Source: a bacterium
GTDB taxonomy: Bacteria > Armatimonadota > Zipacnadia > Zipacnadales > Zipacnadaceae
DNA: 64,000 nucleotides
NCBI GenBank assembly: GCA_030615605.1
Contig: JAUWYY010000002.1
Span: forward strand, 186,001-250,000
Direction: 5' to 3'
A program made the position numbers and the translations under genes. Below, piece after piece: positions 1-43,712 of the stretch. The notes below the pieces were generated by a model. It saw nothing but the letters and a program-made list of their open reading frames with translations. It ran no database searches and was not told the origin of the DNA. Numbering within the stretch: the stretch's first letter is position 1; each line of letters begins with the position of its first letter.

Positions 1-1114
1 CATATTTACACTGCTCGGCGGCTTGCTGGCCGGCGCGGCCTTTTGGACATACCAGGCCAGCGGCACACACATCGTGCTGGCCTTCTTCGTGTGGATTGTG
101 CTGCGGGTGGTCGGCATTATACCAGGAGATACAAGGCCCCGCCTTCGCAAGACAGCCTACGAGTTGCTGCTGTTTGGGGCCGGCCTGGCCGGCTGCTCCC
201 TGGTAATCTTCATCTGGGCTCAATATCACGGAAATTGGGCACGAATGCTCTACTGTATCAGAGATATGCCCAGAGAGTCTATGCACCTGTACCTGTGGCG
301 GTGGTCAGCACTGCTTGACAACTGGACACCTGACTCCCTCAGCTTGAGCGCGCTCAAGTCGTACCTGGGAAGCCTGGATCCCTACCCTCTGGCAGCCATT
401 GCGTGGCTGCTGCTGACTGTAAGCTGGTTCCGAAGCCGTAGGAGGCTGGCACCTGTCACTTGCTCGCGAGTCGGCTTGCTGCTTACCTTCGGTGGAGTTG
501 GGATGCTCGTTATGTTTTGGTTCGCAGCGACTTACCGCCTGCTACTTCACGTGATGCCAACGCTGGGGCTAGTAGCGTGCTGGTGGGCCAGCAGAAGAAC
601 TCAGCAGGCAGGAACAGTTGTTAAGCGTTACTGGCCCGCAGCTCTGCTTGTCCTGTTTATGCTCTGGGGAGTGGTGCGTATCGGACACAACCTTTCCTGG
701 CGGGGAGATACGCGCGTGGAGTTCCCCACTGCTACTTTCTGGACCACACCCGAGGATGCGGCCTGGCTGGAGCAGGCCGTGGCAACTGTGCACAAAGAGC
801 ATCCGCCTGGTTCAAGCTGCTTCATCCTGGGCCGGGGCGGCCTGTTACATATTCTGACCCAGACATGGCCAGCCGGCAAGTATCCAATGACAGCATCATT
901 TCTCTTGAATTCGACGGAATATGAGAAAGCTTGGGAGAAGATTGCTCGATCCTATCCGACATATGTTTACGGCTTTCTGCACAGCCCACGACATATTCAC
1001 ACCGAGCCTTACTCTGAGACCTTCAGCGCAAATATTGACAAGCACTATGAGGTGCACACCCGCCTTGACAGTCATGCCGGTACTTTTGTAGTCTGGGAGA
1101 AACGCACCGAATAA
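1..1114 (+). CDS. Polytopic membrane protein, glycosyltransferase-39/ArnT-like C-terminal part (5' end probably truncated by window)
   Basis: ORF with many hydrophobic segments; frame is open upstream of the TTG at 23 to the window edge. Confidence 0.55.
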   Translation, partial: IFTLLGGLLAGAAFWTYQASGTHIVLAFFVWIVLRVVGIIPGDTRPRLRKTAYELLLFGAGLAGCSLVIFIWAQYHGNWARMLYCIRDMPRESMHLYLWRWSALLDNWTPDSLSLSALKSYLGSLDPYPLAAIAWLLLTVSWFRSRRRLAPVTCSRVGLLLTFGGVGMLVMFWFAATYRLLLHVMPTLGLVACWWASRRTQQAGTVVKRYWPAALLVLFMLWGVVRIGHNLSWRGDTRVEFPTATFWTTPEDAAWLEQAVATVHKEHPPGSSCFILGRGGLLHILTQTWPAGKYPMTASFLLNSTEYEKAWEKIARSYPTYVYGFLHSPRHIHTEPYSETFSANIDKHYEVHTRLDSHAGTFVVWEKRTE

Positions 1115-1143
1115 TAGCTCAGCCAGTGCGAGGAGGATAGACA

Positions 1144-2130
1144 TTGGTCACCGAAATGGAAATGGTCGCAATCAAGTCAGGCGAGCAGCTTCAGATCATC
1201 CGCGTGGCCGCTCCTGATGCACAGTGGAAAGAGCCAATAGTTGAGGCACTGCAGCACAAAGGCGAGTCCTGGGTGGACACTATCCGGATGACGCTTGAAC
1301 AGTCTCTGGAAGGCGTGCAGTGCTACTACTACCTGGGCCTGCTGGACGGGGAGATCGTCGGCAATATTACCACCGTCGAGGCCATCGAAATGGGCGTCGG
1401 CATTCTCGGCCATGTTTTCACCAGTCCCACCCACCGCCGCAAGGGCATCTGCATGGCGCTGATGGAGACAGTCACCCGCGACTTCGCCGCGCGTGGCGGT
1501 GAAGCGATGACGCTGGGCACCGGCTACGACAGCCCCGCCTACCATATCTACCACCGCTTCGGCTTTGCGGGCATTGGCGCATCAGGGCGGATGATCTGGG
1601 AGGCCCGGCCTGACTTTCTCGACGGCTACTTCGCAGCCGACTCCACCGATGTTGCCGACATTAGCTGGCCGGACTGGTCCCGCCTGGACCTGCTCTACAC
1701 CATTCCCGAGGGCAGCTTCCTGCGCGGCATCTACTTCGGGCACTACGGACCCTGCGAGTACGAGGACAATTTCCTCCGGCTGTCGAAGCTAACCACTGAC
1801 ACTGAGTCTGCCCAGTCAAAGGTGCTTATCAAGCCGGGTGGCGAGGTCGTCGGCCATGCTATGCTGGTACCCGACCCGCGCTGGCACAATGATGTCTGGC
1901 TGCTCGATCTCTTCGTGCACCCTGACTTCTATCCAGCCGCCGGTGAGCTGCTGGCCGCGATAGAGCTGCCGCCGGGTCGAAAGGTCCAAGCTTATGCCGA
2001 CAGCCAATCTCCCCAGAAGATCCAGCTTGTGGAGGCGGCCGGCTTCCACCAGGAGGCGGCCCTGCGCAACCAGATTATCAATGCCGAGGGCCAGCACCTT
2101 GACGTTCACGTGTTCGCTGTTACCAAGTGA
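1144..2130 (+). CDS. GNAT-family N-acetyltransferase
   Basis: 'GHVFTSPTHRRKGICMALMETVTRDFAARGGEAMTLGTGYDSPAYHIYHRFGF' matches the acetyl-CoA binding motif of the GNAT fold. Confidence 0.8.
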   Translation: MVTEMEMVAIKSGEQLQIIRVAAPDAQWKEPIVEALQHKGESWVDTIRMTLEQSLEGVQCYYYLGLLDGEIVGNITTVEAIEMGVGILGHVFTSPTHRRKGICMALMETVTRDFAARGGEAMTLGTGYDSPAYHIYHRFGFAGIGASGRMIWEARPDFLDGYFAADSTDVADISWPDWSRLDLLYTIPEGSFLRGIYFGHYGPCEYEDNFLRLSKLTTDTESAQSKVLIKPGGEVVGHAMLVPDPRWHNDVWLLDLFVHPDFYPAAGELLAAIELPPGRKVQAYADSQSPQKIQLVEAAGFHQEAALRNQIINAEGQHLDVHVFAVTK

Positions 2131-2202
2131 ATGCCCACTACAACCCATCTAACGCGGATTATTCATAAACCGAAATGCAGATCTGCCGTACTGTTCCACT
2201 TT

Positions 2203-2328
2203 CAAAAGTTTTTGCCGGCTTGTCCGCCATAGCTGCCCTTGTGCAGCGCAGGCGGAAAAGGTGCGGCTTGTGGTGAGCTTAGTCGAACCGGAAAACCGGC
2301 TTTTTTCAAAAAGCGGGTTTTCCGCAAA
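2203..2328. repeat. Copy 1 of dispersed intergenic repeat (AAAGTTTTTGCCGG head plus GGAAAACC...GGTTTTCC hairpin)
   Basis: Shares 'AAAGTTTTTGCCGG' and the hairpin architecture with 41806-41869; hairpin at 2290-2323. Confidence 0.75.
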
Positions 2329-2367
2329 ATCCGTTCATAAATGTCGCCACCTAAGGAGCAATATCTA

Positions 2368-2820
2368 ATGCCGACAGTAGAAAGTGAAATTGTCATTGAA
2401 CGTCCGGTAGCCGAAGTCTACGCGCTGGCCCAGGATATCGAGCGCTTCCCCGAGTTTATGGCCGATGTCCAGAGCGTGGAGATTCTGGAGGACGACCCGC
2501 CCCGGCGGGTCAGCCGCTGGACCGGCGTAATCAAGGAGTTTAACCGCACCATCGAGTGGACGGAAGAAGACTACTGGGACGACGGCGCGCACCTGTGCAC
2601 TTTCTCGCAACTGGAGGGCGACTTCAGCGAGTACAGTGGCCGCTGGCAGTTTACTGAGGTGCCCACCGGCACGCGAGTGCAGTTAGAAGTCAACTACGAC
2701 TACAATGTGCCGCTAATCGGGGCGCTGATAAAGAACCTGCTGCGCAAGAAGATGCAGCAGAACACCGACGACATGCTGGCGGCCCTGAAAGGAGAAGCTG
2801 AAAGCGCCGGTGAGGAATAG
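2368..2820 (+). CDS. SRPBCC / polyketide cyclase (RatA/COQ10-like) family protein
   Basis: 'VESEIVIERPVAEVYALAQDIERFPEFMADVQSVEILEDD' is typical of the START/COQ10-like fold; ATG at 2368 follows AAGGAGC. Confidence 0.75.
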   Translation: MPTVESEIVIERPVAEVYALAQDIERFPEFMADVQSVEILEDDPPRRVSRWTGVIKEFNRTIEWTEEDYWDDGAHLCTFSQLEGDFSEYSGRWQFTEVPTGTRVQLEVNYDYNVPLIGALIKNLLRKKMQQNTDDMLAALKGEAESAGEE

Positions 2821-2840
2821 CTCCGCCGAGTGGGTGAGGC

Positions 2841-3269
2841 CTACCTGGCTTTGCAGCAGGGCAGCTTCAGGGGGACCTTGCCCACATACACGCCCAGAAT
2901 GGCGCTCCGGGGGAGGTCGTACACCGCAGAGTGCTCCGTATTATCCCCGACTAAATGGACGCGGCTATCTGTCAAGCGAACGACTCTCTTGATGACTAAT
3001 CCATCGTCACCTGCATCGGCGTTGACGACACTACCCGGCTCAAAGTGCTTCCTGACGAAAAGCAGCCGGTCGCCGGGCTCAAAGGTGGGCTGCATGGAGA
3101 TGCCGTCCACCTCCACCAGCCGAATCAGCGGGCGCTGGCACAGCAGGCAGACAACGTGCAGGGCGGCCACTAGCCCCACCAGAACCAGCAGCACCTTGGC
3201 TGTTTTTAGCACAATCCGCATGTAGTGCTCTCCTGGGCGCAACCGCGCCTGCTGAGTCCTTCGCGGCAA
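2841..3269 (-). CDS. S26-family signal peptidase
   Basis: N-terminal TM, 'VDGISMQPTFEPGDRLLF', 'VIKRVVRL', 'VGDNTEHSAVYDLPRSAILG' are S26 boxes B-E. Confidence 0.85.
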   Translation of the reverse strand: MPRRTQQARLRPGEHYMRIVLKTAKVLLVLVGLVAALHVVCLLCQRPLIRLVEVDGISMQPTFEPGDRLLFVRKHFEPGSVVNADAGDDGLVIKRVVRLTDSRVHLVGDNTEHSAVYDLPRSAILGVYVGKVPLKLPCCKAR

Positions 3270-3309
3270 CTGGCCCAGCCTCCTTCCCCAGCTTTAGGCC
3301 CGCACGCAC

Positions 3310-3513
3310 TTGTCTCTTTGCCCAGAGGCAGGTATTATTAGGGGGAATGCGGTGAGAGCCTGCGAGGTTAACGGCCCGGGCGAGGTGAAGGAGGCCGACA
3401 TCGGCCTGGCCTGCGGCGGTGATTACGCCGTCATCTTTCGGGAGGAGAAGCTGGTCAAGAGGGTGAATGGATGCGAAGTGGCAGGTGGACTACTGGACGA
3501 GGTAGAACTTTGA
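3310..3513 (+). pseudogene. ispG: C-terminal remnant of 4-hydroxy-3-methylbut-2-enyl diphosphate synthase (IspG)
   Basis: 'ACEVNGPGEVKEADIGLACGGDYAVIFREEKLVKRV' resembles the IspG C-terminal block '(V)NGPGEAxEADIGIAGG...LFRKGExVRKV'; no N-terminal part in the window. Confidence 0.7.
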
Positions 3514-3539
3514 TATGGGAAAAGGGAAAACCTTAAGGA

Positions 3540-4418
3540 GTGAGAACAATGCGAAAAGGACTGATTGCTTTCGGCTGGTACGGAGGCAAGTTCAGTCACC
3601 TGAACTGGCTTGTACCCCTCCTTCCTCAAACTCAGCACTATTGTGAGCCCTTTGGCGGCTCCGCAGCAGTCCTGCTAAACAGAGAGCCAGCCCCCGTGGA
3701 GACGTATAACGACATCGACGGAGAACTCGTCAACTTTTTTCGCGTGCTCAGGGAGCAAACAGAAGAGACAATAAACGCAATCGCGCTCACACCTTTTTCG
3801 CTCAAAGAATTCACGATCGCCTGCTCTGAGCCTACTGGGGGGCTCTCGGATTTAGAAAGGGCTCGCCGGTTCTACGTGCGCGCTCGACAGGTGCGCACGG
3901 GACTAGCACAAACAGCGAGTCCGGGAAGGTGGGCGTTCTGCACGGGTACGAGCCGCCGAGGCATGGCAGGCGCGATTTCGAGATGGCGAGGGGGCCTCGA
4001 CCAACTCCCTCGTATTGCGGAGAGACTTCTTCGAGTGCAAATTGAAAGCAGACCCGCACTCGAGGTCATTCACCGATACGACAGCGAAGACACCCTGTTC
4101 TATTGCGACCCCCCGTATCCTCACGAGGCCCGCGGGGATAGCAATGCCTACGGCTTTGAGATGACAGACAACGAGCATAGAGAGCTATCCGAGGTGCTGC
4201 ACTGCGTCCAAGGTAAAGTCTCACTGTCCAGCTACGAATGCCCCATCATGGATGAATTGTACGATGACTGGGACCAGCTATACGCTCCGGACAAGATATG
4301 TCATTCCGTGAAGCAATACAGACAAGAAGTACTGTGGGTTAACTACGACACGCCCTCATCAGAGCAACGGACCGGAGGCGAAGAAGAATGCCCGAGCCCA
4401 CAGAAATCCTTGATATGA
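3540..4418 (+). CDS. D12-class DNA adenine N6-methyltransferase
   Basis: 'YGGKFSHLNWLVPLLP', 'CEPFGGSAAVLLNR' (motif I), 'LFYCDPPYPHEAR' (DPPY catalytic motif). Confidence 0.93.
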   Translation: MRTMRKGLIAFGWYGGKFSHLNWLVPLLPQTQHYCEPFGGSAAVLLNREPAPVETYNDIDGELVNFFRVLREQTEETINAIALTPFSLKEFTIACSEPTGGLSDLERARRFYVRARQVRTGLAQTASPGRWAFCTGTSRRGMAGAISRWRGGLDQLPRIAERLLRVQIESRPALEVIHRYDSEDTLFYCDPPYPHEARGDSNAYGFEMTDNEHRELSEVLHCVQGKVSLSSYECPIMDELYDDWDQLYAPDKICHSVKQYRQEVLWVNYDTPSSEQRTGGEEECPSPQKSLI

Positions 4419-37890: not shown

Positions 37891-38976
37891 TCAGCCGTCG
37901 TCTGTCGTGGTGCTGCCGTTAAACGGTAAATTGTCTTGCCCGGCGGGTGGTACGGGCGCGGGGGCGCTGATCCCCAGATGGTCGTACGCCCGCTGAGTCG
38001 CCATCCGCCCTCGTGAGGTGCGAATCACAAAGCCGATCTTGAGCAGATACGGCTCGACCATATCCTCCAGCGTGTCGGTCTCTTCGGCCAGCGTCGCCCC
38101 TATCGCATTCACACCCACCGGCCCGCCGCCGTAATAGTCAATGATAGCCCGCAGACACTTGCGGTCGAGGTTGTCCAGGCCCTGCTCGTCCACGCCCATA
38201 GCGCTGAGCGCCTCCTGGGCGATGTCCTCGGCAATCACGCCATCGCCGACGATCTGGGCATAATCGCGCACCCGCCGCAGCAGGCGATTGACGATACGGG
38301 GCGTACCCCGCGCCCGCTGGGCCAGTTCCTGGGCACCGGCAGCATCCAGCTCTATCTCCAGAATCTGCGCCGCCCGTACCACAATCTCCTGCAACTGCTG
38401 TTCCGTGTAGAAGTCCAGGTGGTGGAAGATGCCAAAGCGCTCGCGGAGCGCCGGGGTCAACATCCCCGCCCGCGTCGTCGCCCCAATCAGCGTAAACGGC
38501 TTGAGGTCCAGCGAGATGGTCTTGGCGTACGGCCCCTTGTCCACCACGAAGTCAATGCAGAAGTCCTCCATCGCCGCATACATATACTCCTCGACCACGC
38601 GCGGCAGGCGGTGGATTTCGTCAATGAACAGCACGTCGCCCCGGTCCAGGTTGGTCAGGATCCCAACCAGGTCGCTGGCCCGCTCGATAGACGGCCCGGA
38701 GGTGCGGAACAGCCTGTTGCCCATCTCGTTGGCGATGATATGGGCCAGCGTGGTCTTGCCCAGCCCGGGCGGGCCGTCGAAGAGGATATGCTCCAGCACA
38801 TCCCCGCGCTGGCGGGCGGCGGCCAGGGCAATGCGGAGCTGCTCGACCACCTGCTCCTGGCCGACGTCGTACTCGTCCAGCGTCTGCGGCCGCAGCGAGA
38901 GCGTTTCTTCTTCCAGCTCCTCCTGCTGCTGGGCCTTAGCACTAATTATCCTGCGGCGATGTTCTCCGTTGGGCAT
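37891..38976 (-). CDS. ruvB: Holliday junction branch migration helicase RuvB
   Basis: 'LRPQTLDEYDVGQEQVVEQLRIALAAARQRGDVLEHILFDGPPGLGKTTLAHIIANEMG', 'DVLFIDEIHRL'. Confidence 0.98.
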   Translation of the reverse strand: MPNGEHRRRIISAKAQQQEELEEETLSLRPQTLDEYDVGQEQVVEQLRIALAAARQRGDVLEHILFDGPPGLGKTTLAHIIANEMGNRLFRTSGPSIERASDLVGILTNLDRGDVLFIDEIHRLPRVVEEYMYAAMEDFCIDFVVDKGPYAKTISLDLKPFTLIGATTRAGMLTPALRERFGIFHHLDFYTEQQLQEIVVRAAQILEIELDAAGAQELAQRARGTPRIVNRLLRRVRDYAQIVGDGVIAEDIAQEALSAMGVDEQGLDNLDRKCLRAIIDYYGGGPVGVNAIGATLAEETDTLEDMVEPYLLKIGFVIRTSRGRMATQRAYDHLGISAPAPVPPAGQDNLPFNGSTTTDDG

Positions 38977-40759: not shown

Positions 40760-40828
40760 TGCTGCCCCCTCCCATGGCTATTTCCGGTTTTCCTTCCCAC
40801 GATCATTCCCGCTTTCTCCTCCCCCTGC

Positions 40829-40862
40829 TAAAAGTTTTTGCCGGAGGGGTTCCCCGCAAGTC
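40829..40862. repeat. Copy 2 of dispersed intergenic repeat, hairpin-deleted
   Basis: 'AAAGTTTTTGCCGGAGGGGTTCCCCGCAAGTC' equals copy 3 minus its internal hairpin segment. Confidence 0.75.
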
Positions 40863-40879: not shown

Positions 40880-41098
40880 TCACTTGCACCCGTGTATGAA
40901 AGCCACCACCAGCGCCGCTGCCAGAAGTGCCACAGCCAGGACGCCAAACGCTCCGCAGCCCAGCCAGGATAGGTCAACCAGCCAACCTACGATGCCGGTG
41001 CTGCGGTCATCCGAGCCGCCGTCCAGACTTGGCCCCTTACCCAACTTGTCAAGCCGTCTCTGACGGGCGCTTTTCTCTGGCGTTCGCTTCTTAGCCAT
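40880..41098 (-). CDS. Small hypothetical protein with C-terminal TM
   Basis: 72-aa ORF, 'WLGCGAFGVLAVALLAAALVVAFIHGC'. Confidence 0.45.
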   Translation of the reverse strand: MAKKRTPEKSARQRRLDKLGKGPSLDGGSDDRSTGIVGWLVDLSWLGCGAFGVLAVALLAAALVVAFIHGCK

Positions 41099-41153: not shown

Positions 41154-41771
41154 CTATTGCGACTTGCCAGCCTGCAGTGAATGCCCTTTTTGAGTTGTCA
41201 CGCCGCCGGTAAGCGCCCAGCGCATCGCCTCCTGGGGACTGAGGTCAATCGGCTCGGTCATTGAGCGCGGGACATAGACCGTAAAACCACCCAACTGATA
41301 GCTCCACGGTAGGAACACGGCTACCGTCTCGTCGTCTCCCATGCCCTCCGGCGCGTCGCTGAAATCTTCGCGGGTGACCAATCCTATGAGCCGCATGGCG
41401 GAACCTGGGAGGGTTAACATAACCACCTGGTCGGTTTGCGGGCTCTCACTACCACTCAGATACGCCAGCACTTGTCGCAGCGAACTGTAGACCTCTCTAA
41501 TCACGGGCAATTTGTGGAGCAGGGCTTCTCCCCAACCCCAGACCTTGCGCACGACCACCGCCTGGAGCAGAAGGCCGGCCAAGAAAACCAGCACCAATCC
41601 GACTACAACGCCCGTGCCCGGCAGATACCAATTCTCCGGCAGGACATAGCGCAGGGCTCCTCCCAAAATGGACTCCAGCCCCTGCCCGAGCCAGATCAGC
41701 AGGTAGATGGTGACGGCCAGCGGCAGGATAGTCAGCAGCCCTTTAAGGAAGATATTGTAGATGCTTTTCAC
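41154..41771 (-). CDS. DUF502 family membrane protein
   Basis: 'FLKGLLTILPLAVTIYLLIWLGQGLESILG', 'IPIIR/LPVIREVYSSLRQVLAYLSG', 'VAVFLPWSYQLGGFTVYVPRS'. Confidence 0.88.
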   Translation of the reverse strand: MKSIYNIFLKGLLTILPLAVTIYLLIWLGQGLESILGGALRYVLPENWYLPGTGVVVGLVLVFLAGLLLQAVVVRKVWGWGEALLHKLPVIREVYSSLRQVLAYLSGSESPQTDQVVMLTLPGSAMRLIGLVTREDFSDAPEGMGDDETVAVFLPWSYQLGGFTVYVPRSMTEPIDLSPQEAMRWALTGGVTTQKGHSLQAGKSQ

Positions 41772-41805
41772 GCCGATTTCCCACTTCCCTTCTACTTCCC
41801 CGTTT

Positions 41806-41869
41806 CAAAGTTTTTGCCGGAGGGGTGTGGGGAACCGGCTCTTTTCAAAAAGCGGGTTCCCCGCAAGTC
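41806..41869. repeat. Copy 3 of dispersed intergenic repeat (full)
   Basis: 'AAAGTTTTTGCCGGAGGGGTGTGGGGAACCGGCTCTTTTCAAAAAGCGGGTTCCCCGCAAGTC'; hairpin 41829-41862. Confidence 0.8.
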
Positions 41870-41915: not shown

Positions 41916-41975
41916 TTATCGCTGCCGGAAGACCTCGCGGACGATTTCGTCGGTTGCTGCCAGGTCGGGATCGGC
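41916..41975 (-). pseudogene. ruvA: Duplicated ruvA 3' end (19 codons plus stop)
   Basis: Minus strand reads ADPDLAATDEIVREVFRQR*, matching the intact RuvA C-terminus ADPDLAATDEIVREVFRRR* at 42556-42615; 50/60 nt identical, 34/35 in the core. Confidence 0.92.
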
Positions 41976-41978
41976 CTG

Positions 41979-42248
41979 TCAACTGCTTTCGGTCTTGCGG
42001 AGCTGGCGGACCGAGCGCTTGAGCAAGCCGCGCACCAGCGTCTGATAGCGCATATTATTGGCCTCGGCGATCTCCTTAAGCTCCTCAATGAGGCCAGGCT
42101 CCAAGCGCAGGCTGATTCGCTTCTTCTTCTCCGGTTTGATGTCCAGGATAACATCTTCCGCCGGCCCGGCATCAAAATCCTCCGGGTCGTGCTTATCCCA
42201 AAAGCTCAGTTCCTCATCTTCAGTTTTGAACTCAGGTACTTCTCTCAT
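41979..42248 (-). CDS. CopG/BrnA-like antitoxin
   Basis: 'EELSFWDKHDPEDFD...KKKRISLRLEPGLIEELKEIAEANNMRYQTLVRGLLKRSVRQL' (CopG_antitoxin-type RHH). Confidence 0.85.
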   Translation of the reverse strand: MREVPEFKTEDEELSFWDKHDPEDFDAGPAEDVILDIKPEKKKRISLRLEPGLIEELKEIAEANNMRYQTLVRGLLKRSVRQLRKTESS

Positions 42249-42257
42249 TAGCTTTCC

Positions 42258-42506
42258 TTACCTCTCTGGAAATGCAGTGATAATGCGGGCGGTATCGGGC
42301 GGCTCCAGTGCGAATATCACCTTCAAGTAGCGTCCGTCTTCGGTCTGTCCCTTCACATAATAGCGCCTTTCGTTGCCTTTGGCCGCAATGCGTCGCGGCG
42401 ACAGTCGCTGATACATAATATCGGCCACCTCATACCATTCTACACCGTGTTTACGCAACATATGTCTGTGGGCTTTCCTAGTCGCGTAGAACCTGGCAAT
42501 TCTCAT
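42258..42506 (-). CDS. BrnT-like toxin
   Basis: 'RKHGVEWYEVADIMY...RRYYVKGQTEDGRYLKVIFALEPPDTARIITAFPER', 9 bp upstream of the antitoxin; resembles BrnT-type RNases. Confidence 0.65.
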   Translation of the reverse strand: MRIARFYATRKAHRHMLRKHGVEWYEVADIMYQRLSPRRIAAKGNERRYYVKGQTEDGRYLKVIFALEPPDTARIITAFPER

Positions 42507-42555
42507 AATGCCGAATCCTTTATACCATAAAGCCGACAAGTTGTCAATACACCGT

Positions 42556-43170
42556 TCACCGCCGCCTAAAGACTTCTCTAACGATTTCGTCGGTTGCTGC
42601 CAGGTCAGGATCGGCTTCGGTGACCTGGATGATGCTGTGCATAGCGTCGGCGCGGGACAGGCCCAACTGCATTAGCACTTCCAGCGCGTCGGCTTCGGTG
42701 TCGCTGCGCGGGCCGACCAGCTCTACTTCGAGTGCCTCAGTAACATCCACGAACTCGCCCAGCTTGCCCTTGAGCCGGGCGATCATATCCCGGGCCCGCT
42801 GCGGGCCGACACCGGGTAGCGACTTGAGCACCTCGACATCTTCAACCTCGATGGCCCGGGCCAGGCGACCGGCCGGCAGGACAAAGGCGCGCAGCGCCGC
42901 CATCGGACCAATGCGCGGGACCTCCAGCAGCCGCTGGAAGAAATCACGCTGGGTTTCGGTCTGGAAGCCGACCAAGTGCGGGGTTATGCGGGCGGCCTCA
43001 TCGTGCAGGTAGTGATAGGTAAAAAGCTCGATGGTGCTGCCCAGGCCGCGATCGGACATAGCTTCGCGCACCGGCTCGGGCACCTCCACCTCGTAGCCAA
43101 TCCCGCCCACATCAATGATGAGGGACTGGGAATCTATGCTGAGCAGTTCGCCGCGGATACGCCGGATCAT
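42556..43170 (-). CDS. ruvA: Holliday junction branch migration protein RuvA
   Basis: 'MIRRIRGELLSIDSQSLIIDVGGIGYEVEVP', 'LKSLPGVGPQRARDMIARLKGKL'. Confidence 0.96.
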   Translation of the reverse strand: MIRRIRGELLSIDSQSLIIDVGGIGYEVEVPEPVREAMSDRGLGSTIELFTYHYLHDEAARITPHLVGFQTETQRDFFQRLLEVPRIGPMAALRAFVLPAGRLARAIEVEDVEVLKSLPGVGPQRARDMIARLKGKLGEFVDVTEALEVELVGPRSDTEADALEVLMQLGLSRADAMHSIIQVTEADPDLAATDEIVREVFRRR

Positions 43171-43712
43171 TGAGCATTTCTCCCTTCGCGGGCCAGGGCC
43201 TCACGGACAGCTTCGGGTAGTTCGCGCTCACCACCGGCACGCGCGGGCCGGGCGTGGCAAATCGCCAGGGCCAGCGCATCGGTGACATCAGCAGGACTGG
43301 GAATCTCATCCAGCCCCAGGAGCTGGGTGACCATGGCCCCGACCTGCATCTTGGTGGCGCGGCCATTGCCGGTCAGCGACTTTTTCACCTGGGAGGCCGG
43401 GTAAGCGGCTATCGGCAGCGAGTGCCGGGCTGCCGCCAGGTAGATAGCGCCGCGAGCGTGGCCCATCAGAATGGCCGTGCGCGGGTGGCGATATTTGGAG
43501 TAGAGCTTTTCGACTACCGCAATATCGGGCTGAAACTCCGCCATGACCTCAGCGATACCTTCAAAGATGGCCGAAAGCCGCTGCTCCAGGAGCCAGTCTG
43601 ACTCGGTGGAGACAACGCCGCCCTCCACCAGCCGATACCGGTGCGTATCAATCTGGTCAATGACGCCGTAGCCGGTGCGCTGCAGTCCGGGATCAATGCC
43701 CATAATGCGCAT
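43167..43712 (-). CDS. ruvC: Crossover junction endodeoxyribonuclease RuvC
   Basis: 'MRIMGIDPGLQRTGYGVID', 'AVVEKLYSKYRHPRTAILMGHARGAI', overlaps ruvA start by 4 bp. Confidence 0.97.
   Translation of the reverse strand: MRIMGIDPGLQRTGYGVIDQIDTHRYRLVEGGVVSTESDWLLEQRLSAIFEGIAEVMAEFQPDIAVVEKLYSKYRHPRTAILMGHARGAIYLAAARHSLPIAAYPASQVKKSLTGNGRATKMQVGAMVTQLLGLDEIPSPADVTDALALAICHARPARAGGERELPEAVREALAREGRNAQ

Follow-up and report, generated by a model that had tools for sequence, protein, structure and literature searches.

Copies of gene ends bracket small genes behind ruvA and other host genes in a Zipacnadia bacterium

The window, that is, the whole 64-kb stretch of DNA analysed here, belongs to a MAG of 2.89 Mb in 59 contigs, 92.7% complete (the home genome, G000), from Candidatus Zipacnadia, the label carried by the public MAG of a genus-mate with a 91% identical RuvA; the group is covered in a paper on the Armatimonadota of marine sediments. 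In this stretch ruvA is followed by a predicted toxin–antitoxin (TA) operon and then by a second copy of its own 3' end (Table 1). The toxin and antitoxin are themselves ordinary. They resemble the type II BrnT/BrnA systems in the BrnT-family sequence of the toxin and in having a ribbon-helix-helix antitoxin; they differ in that the toxin scores under the Pfam BrnT cut-off and in that the antitoxin matches PF12441 CopG_antitoxin instead of BrnA (PF14384, 17.2 bits, under the 26.1 cut-off). A longer ORF opening with TTG and reaching 42539 is unlikely to give the toxin start because it overlaps the promoter; the 82-aa toxin ORFs align in the home genome and in two other members of the genus, G005 and G001. 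The toxin and antitoxin genes are all that lies between the two ruvA tails, and no recombinase was found among the genes checked next to ruvA. On these points profile matches and gene list agree with an earlier note on this DNA, which had described a BrnT-like toxin and a CopG/BrnA-like antitoxin as the sole content and had reported no recombinase.

Table 1. Features of the ruvA locus, in window positions
Feature	Position	Strand	Basis
ruvA, intact, 204 aa	42556..43170	-	TIGR00084 130.7 bits, above cut-off; PF01330
Functional ruvA 3' end, copy 1	42556..42615	-	Direct repeat; last 25 nt differ from relatives more than those of copy 2
-35-like TTGACA of the TA operon	42542..42547	-	Read from sequence
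-10-like TATAAA of the TA operon, 17-nt spacer to the -35	42519..42524	-	Read from sequence
BrnT-like toxin (predicted), 82 aa, ATG at 42506	42258..42506	-	PF04365 E 2.4e-7, 31.4 bits, below the 34.5 cut-off
CopG-family antitoxin (predicted), 89 aa	41979..42248	-	PF12441 CopG_antitoxin 66.1 bits, cut-off 28
Orphan ruvA 3' end, copy 2, probably the displaced native end	41916..41975	-	Repeat and comparison with relatives
DUF502 gene	41154..41771	-	PF04367
72-aa small protein, in the variable ruvA–ruvB interval	40880..41098	-	ORF list; orthologues in G005 and G004
ruvB, 361 aa, far border of the variable ruvA–ruvB interval	37891..38976	-	Orthologues aligned across genomes; named from sequence

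The two ruvA ends are offset by exactly 640 bp. They differ at 10 of 60 nt (83% identical); one of the differences falls within the first 35 nt and the other nine within the final 25 (16/25 identical), and the coordinates and counts of the earlier note stand. Its statement that the cassette is integrated into ruvA has to be corrected, the cassette being placed downstream of an intact gene. Outside the copies identity drops to chance (24% in the 25 nt before them, 25% in the 12 nt after), and the orphan end begins 3 nt past the antitoxin stop codon. A chance repeat was ruled out: this is the sole same-strand repeat of at least 35 nt at offsets of 150–4000 in the whole window, and it is kept in G005 and G001. 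An assembly artefact was likewise ruled out, because these two independent MAGs show the same layout with identical junctions: each has ruvA, the TA pair and a second tail at an offset of 640, with the same right-hand junction TTGACAGGCCGATCCC. Downstream of the orphan end the DNA runs on into DUF502 in both the home genome and G005. As to the remainder of the ruvA–ruvB interval, its content is different in every genome compared; an intergenic interspersed repeat (AAAGTTTTTGCCGGAGGGGT... GGGTTCCCCGCAAGTC) occurs at window positions 40814-40862 and 41790-41869 and is also present downstream of ruvA in other members of the genus.

The genus is represented here by seven genomes, and all the genomes used for comparison are MAGs. 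G003 and G004 have one ruvA end and no TA pair, as have the family outgroups G008 and G013, while the contig of G006 stops inside ruvA right where the repeat would start. The reading of the arrangement as an insertion, put forward in the earlier note with the suggestion to look for empty sites, is thus borne out both within the genus and outside it. Since the two fastest-evolving neighbour genes pair the home genome with G005, place G003 next and pair G001 with G004, the distribution of the TA pair is patchy. At fourfold degenerate sites the home genome and G001 agree at 51 of 66 positions in the TA genes, as against 104/169 in ruvB, 55/91 in ruvC and 90/211 in an M48 gene. This likeness fits transfer of the pair within the genus, or else loss in both G003 and G004 together with unusual conservation of the TA genes; we favour transfer, though the numbers are small. 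A further tail is found in G005, after DUF502 and the 72-aa block (tails at sense 8477, 9117 and 10255; L114, G005:C68), so that these genes are bracketed too. Homologous TA pairs in more distant genomes had no convincing bracketing repeats within the ±600 bp tested, though in G009 a 180-nt repeat brackets the TA more widely, at an offset of 1.9 kb.

This architecture of host gene, cargo and copied gene end is specific neither to ruvA nor to TA genes. The home genome has a second BrnT/CopG pair, which, like its G005 orthologue, stands behind a DUF2254 gene whose 3' end recurs downstream; in both genomes this first end copy is followed by a Phd/ParE-type pair and then by a further copy of the DUF2254-gene end, and in G004 the end of the DUF2254 gene is copied around other cargo. 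In G004 a Phd/ParE-type pair stands behind mutS, with 51 nt of the mutS end repeated after it; the same cassette begins behind mutS in G001, where the contig ends, and the mutS site of G005 is empty. Phd/YefM loci are thus bracketed at the DUF2254 gene and at mutS; none of the PIN-domain (VapC) loci is. Behind folD, the home genome has a DUF4145 protein, a folD tail, a 124-aa membrane protein and a second folD tail (G000:C12:73136-75420; L151, L231). In G005 and G006 folD runs directly into the next gene, and it is into that DNA that the last folD tail of the home genome continues; G001 and G004 gave matches to single folD ends only. A gene at C40:28047 behaves in the same way, being filled in the home genome, where the native downstream DNA follows on from the last orphan end, and empty in G005. 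In all cases inspected the cargo lies in the direction of the host gene, and at most loci the homology between copies stops at the host stop codon; to the left of the copies, shared bases do not exceed chance.

Some further observations were made at these loci. In the home genome the DUF2254 gene (gene X) is truncated; the array behind this gene holds BrnT/CopG, Phd/ParE and other small cargos between the end copies (L122/L123, L127). Several small genes, which may form a paralogous array, have a run of short repeats (AGGAGGGCTTACCATGAGCAAGAAGTGGCTGTGG, minus strand) at their starts (L123:688-5018, G005:C81). The end of mutS in the home genome is copied both about 90 bp downstream, with non-coding DNA only in between, and upstream of mutS, where the adjoining non-coding stretch is also the same (G000:C12:52915-57576, L150).

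Such a range of hosts bears on the idea that a minimal element, provided with a replacement gene end, integrated site-specifically at the ruvA 3' end by means of a recombinase acting in trans. At ruvA taken by itself, a replacement gene end with a near-identical core and junctions that are the same in three genomes are what this idea would predict; we nevertheless hold it to be very unlikely, given that the hosts differ (ruvA, folD, mutS, DUF2254, a restriction–modification (RM) gene and others), that their tails show no shared motif by eye, that the cargo varies and that the genes checked next to ruvA include no recombinase. The proposal of the earlier note that a TA unit used ruvA as its landing site is not supported either, as different cargos and different hosts show this architecture too and the tails, compared by eye, have no site in common.

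How frequent the arrangement is was assessed in 782 kb of the home genome, about a quarter of it, by collecting same-strand repeats that end no more than 15 nt from a host stop codon and have the orphan copy downstream, with genes defined by simple ORF calls; this strict classification, backed by a permutation, supersedes a looser one. Eight genes qualify, seven of them convincingly, the 139-aa gene at C12:57616 being doubtful. The hosts include folD, a 973-aa gene of restriction-methylation type, a pilin-like gene, a 264-aa gene and a 543-aa gene. In 1000 random relocations, which preserve repeat lengths and spacing and not clustering in arrays, the mean was 1.33 genes and none (0/1000) reached 8, and the mirror classes of the scan (orphan heads, upstream tails) gave counts of 0, 1 and 3. 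Control regions, which are single contigs or stretches, yielded no such gene in E. coli (200 kb) or in another family of the order (391 kb), one in a different genus of the family (317 kb) and two in another family of the phylum (400 kb), in which all classes were equally frequent. Direct repeats in the home genome outnumber inverted ones by 49 to 2. This excess of direct repeats would be expected if the tail and cargo had been duplicated in tandem and the second cargo then lost or replaced, without any insertion; yet successive cargos are unrelated (a DUF4145 protein and a membrane protein at folD, BrnT/CopG and Phd/ParE at the DUF2254 gene) and relatives have empty sites without cargo, and tandem duplication is in our view hardly credible as a general account.

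Which of the two ends is native can be asked wherever relatives offer a sequence for comparison. At ruvA of the home genome, each of four relatives has the base of the orphan 7 times and that of the functional end twice. At C40:28047 the copies show no difference in their first 63 nt, all mismatches lying further 3'; where they differ, G005 has the base of the orphan 11 times and that of the functional copy 4 times (10 v 1 in the 3' half). For folD the scores, orphan first, are 4 v 2 with G006, 3 v 1 with each of G001 and G004, and 2 v 3 with G005. The relation is reversed at mutS of G004, where relatives match the functional end at 13 positions and the orphan at 3, and the DUF2254 locus gives a mixed match. 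Mismatches between copies, 39/470 in the 5' halves against 76/473 in the 3' halves, point in the same direction as the empty-site comparison and are not taken as proof because the count is biased by how the copies were delimited; the 5' to 3' trend is reversed at ruvA of G001 and at a 570-aa gene. These sequence comparisons support a probably foreign functional end and a displaced native end at three loci (ruvA of the home genome, C40:28047 and folD), not at all of them.

At ruvA itself the history seems more involved. The body of the gene in the home genome (window 42632-43171) is about 74% identical to that of G005, in flanks of about 90-95%, and 89% identical to that of G006, and it is because of this odd pattern that ruvA alleles seem to have been exchanged. 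Therefore the odd 3' end of ruvA in the home genome may postdate the insertion or stem from the exchange, which confounds this end as evidence. The functional ruvA ends of the home genome, G005 and G001 also differ from one another, and within each genome the two tails have lineage-specific bases in common, as conversion would give. When the earlier note took the AGA/AGG end of ruvA as having arrived with the cassette and the copy at 41916 as native, it was therefore partly supported: the relatives agree with the second part by 7 positions to 2, whereas the differences among the three functional ends show that the AGA/AGG end is no fixed component of the cassette, and the exchanged body leaves its arrival with the cassette in doubt.

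The origin of the ends is also what separates insertion of incoming DNA from a process in which cargo would insert just after the stop codon with duplication of 50-200 bp of resident sequence, the copies diverging later. Long target duplications of the order of 100 bp are described for RM genes (Nobusato 2000; Furuta 2010, as reported in PMC3031569 and PMC3874152), and those described there have in common with the present cassettes that small selfish units lie between direct repeats whose length varies and is of the order of 100 bp, without transposase. The repeat lengths, which vary between about 50 and 200 bp, the decayed orphan at mutS of G004 and the empty sites of relatives, which this process requires, are all in keeping with it. 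As those reports present it, the process differs from what is found here. The present repeats consist of gene 3' ends and, at most loci, reach no further than the stop codon, a limit not expected of a random insertion point; the cargo is mostly not RM, and the functional copy appears to be the foreign one at C40:28047, folD and ruvA of the home genome. Taken together we find long target duplication a somewhat unlikely explanation.

Our preferred reading, to which we give a probability of roughly one half, is that incoming DNA carrying a gene end followed by cargo recombined at the resident gene end and displaced the native end downstream. For ruvA, the incoming DNA would open with the final tens of bases from a related ruvA and then run on into the TA genes. 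By homologous recombination in the conserved 3' end the resident gene would acquire a complete, partly foreign end, now followed by the cargo, and the other end of the fragment would join, without clear homology, at a point about 60 bp ahead of the resident stop codon, on another copy of the chromosome. Alternatively, a single crossover of a small circle carrying tail and cargo could give nearly the same product. By either route the native end would become an orphan behind the TA genes. Repeated rounds would build arrays of tail-bearing cassettes, in which the gene is followed by cargo in the same orientation, an orphan end and the native downstream DNA, and paired tails could later recombine, with conversion, exchange or loss as the outcome. 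The route of entry, the nature of the second junction and the later homogenisation are what we infer; the layout, its recurrence with repeats aligned to stop codons, the empty sites and the continuity of the last orphan end with native DNA at folD and C40:28047 are observed.

There are precedents for such events. Among 60 E. coli integrants sought as one-sided events, 56 had partial duplications of the target end, 109-950 bp long in the 14 that were sequenced, which were ascribed to single crossovers of truncated circles (PMC3240628), and the one-sided route (homology-facilitated illegitimate recombination) has been proposed for arrays of T6SS immunity genes (PMC5361080). That homology ends at the host stop codon is expected if the incoming DNA carried a related gene end and then a different neighbour. 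Genes for DNA uptake, ComEC and DprA, are present in the genus; this allows transformation and does not show it. No donor was seen in which the host gene is directly followed by the cargo without an orphan tail.

The main point that recombination with incoming DNA leaves unexplained is the regular spacing of the cargo: in each of the 11 cases measured (nine host genes, two of them with arrays), 1-24 nt separate its stop codon from the orphan tail that follows, while only 18-32% of ordinary codirectional gene pairs are equally close. This counts against that reading because random fragment ends do not predict such gaps. The same spacing, with repeats beginning 1-24 nt after the stop codon of codirectional cargo ORFs, calls to mind integron cassettes, the tail copy then acting as attC. 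Here, however, the repeat is host coding sequence and is different at each locus, and only one of three tails (folD) folds better than shuffled sequences (z of -0.3, -3.2 and +0.6), and we consider an integron-like array most improbable. A dedicated acquisition process in this lineage could produce the gaps directly, if units made of a host-gene end and a complete ORF or operon were cut just past the stop codon and added behind almost any gene. They might come from processed transcripts, for example, or be moved by an unrecognised recombinase, with an effect like that of integrons without a fixed attachment site. We deem this quite unlikely; a crude regular-expression search found no reverse-transcriptase motifs in 782 kb of the home genome.

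Recombination of incoming DNA at a gene end, as preferred here, has parallels in two other settings. In the C-terminal displacement of Rhs and T6SS proteins (PMC5361080), a module likewise recombines at a conserved gene, the old 3' end is moved downstream and arrays result; by contrast, the hosts in the present case are housekeeping genes whose protein end is restored instead of being replaced by a new toxin, and the cargo is an independent gene. Fungal mitochondria have mORFs with carboxy-terminal duplications at atp6, atp9, cox2 and nad3 (PMC3630166), where, as here, a foreign end is fused in frame, followed by a cargo ORF and by a native end that matches relatives better; the cargo there is a homing endonuclease, whereas none is recognised in the cassettes described here. 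TA cassettes with gene-end duplications of this kind were not found in a literature search that used narrow terms and covered few subscription papers.

Earlier accounts of gene-end displacement mostly concern secreted polymorphic toxins, RM genes and mitochondrial homing genes. In the present bacterial genome it appears to affect housekeeping genes throughout, with about 10 hosts per Mb, TA pairs being one kind of cargo. The recurrence of the layout at many genes points to a general route of gene gain in this little-known lineage, and it suggests how small genes without a transposase enter genomes and stack behind conserved genes. As the orphan tails would keep a record of old ends, the order and source of the insertions become testable from genome comparisons.
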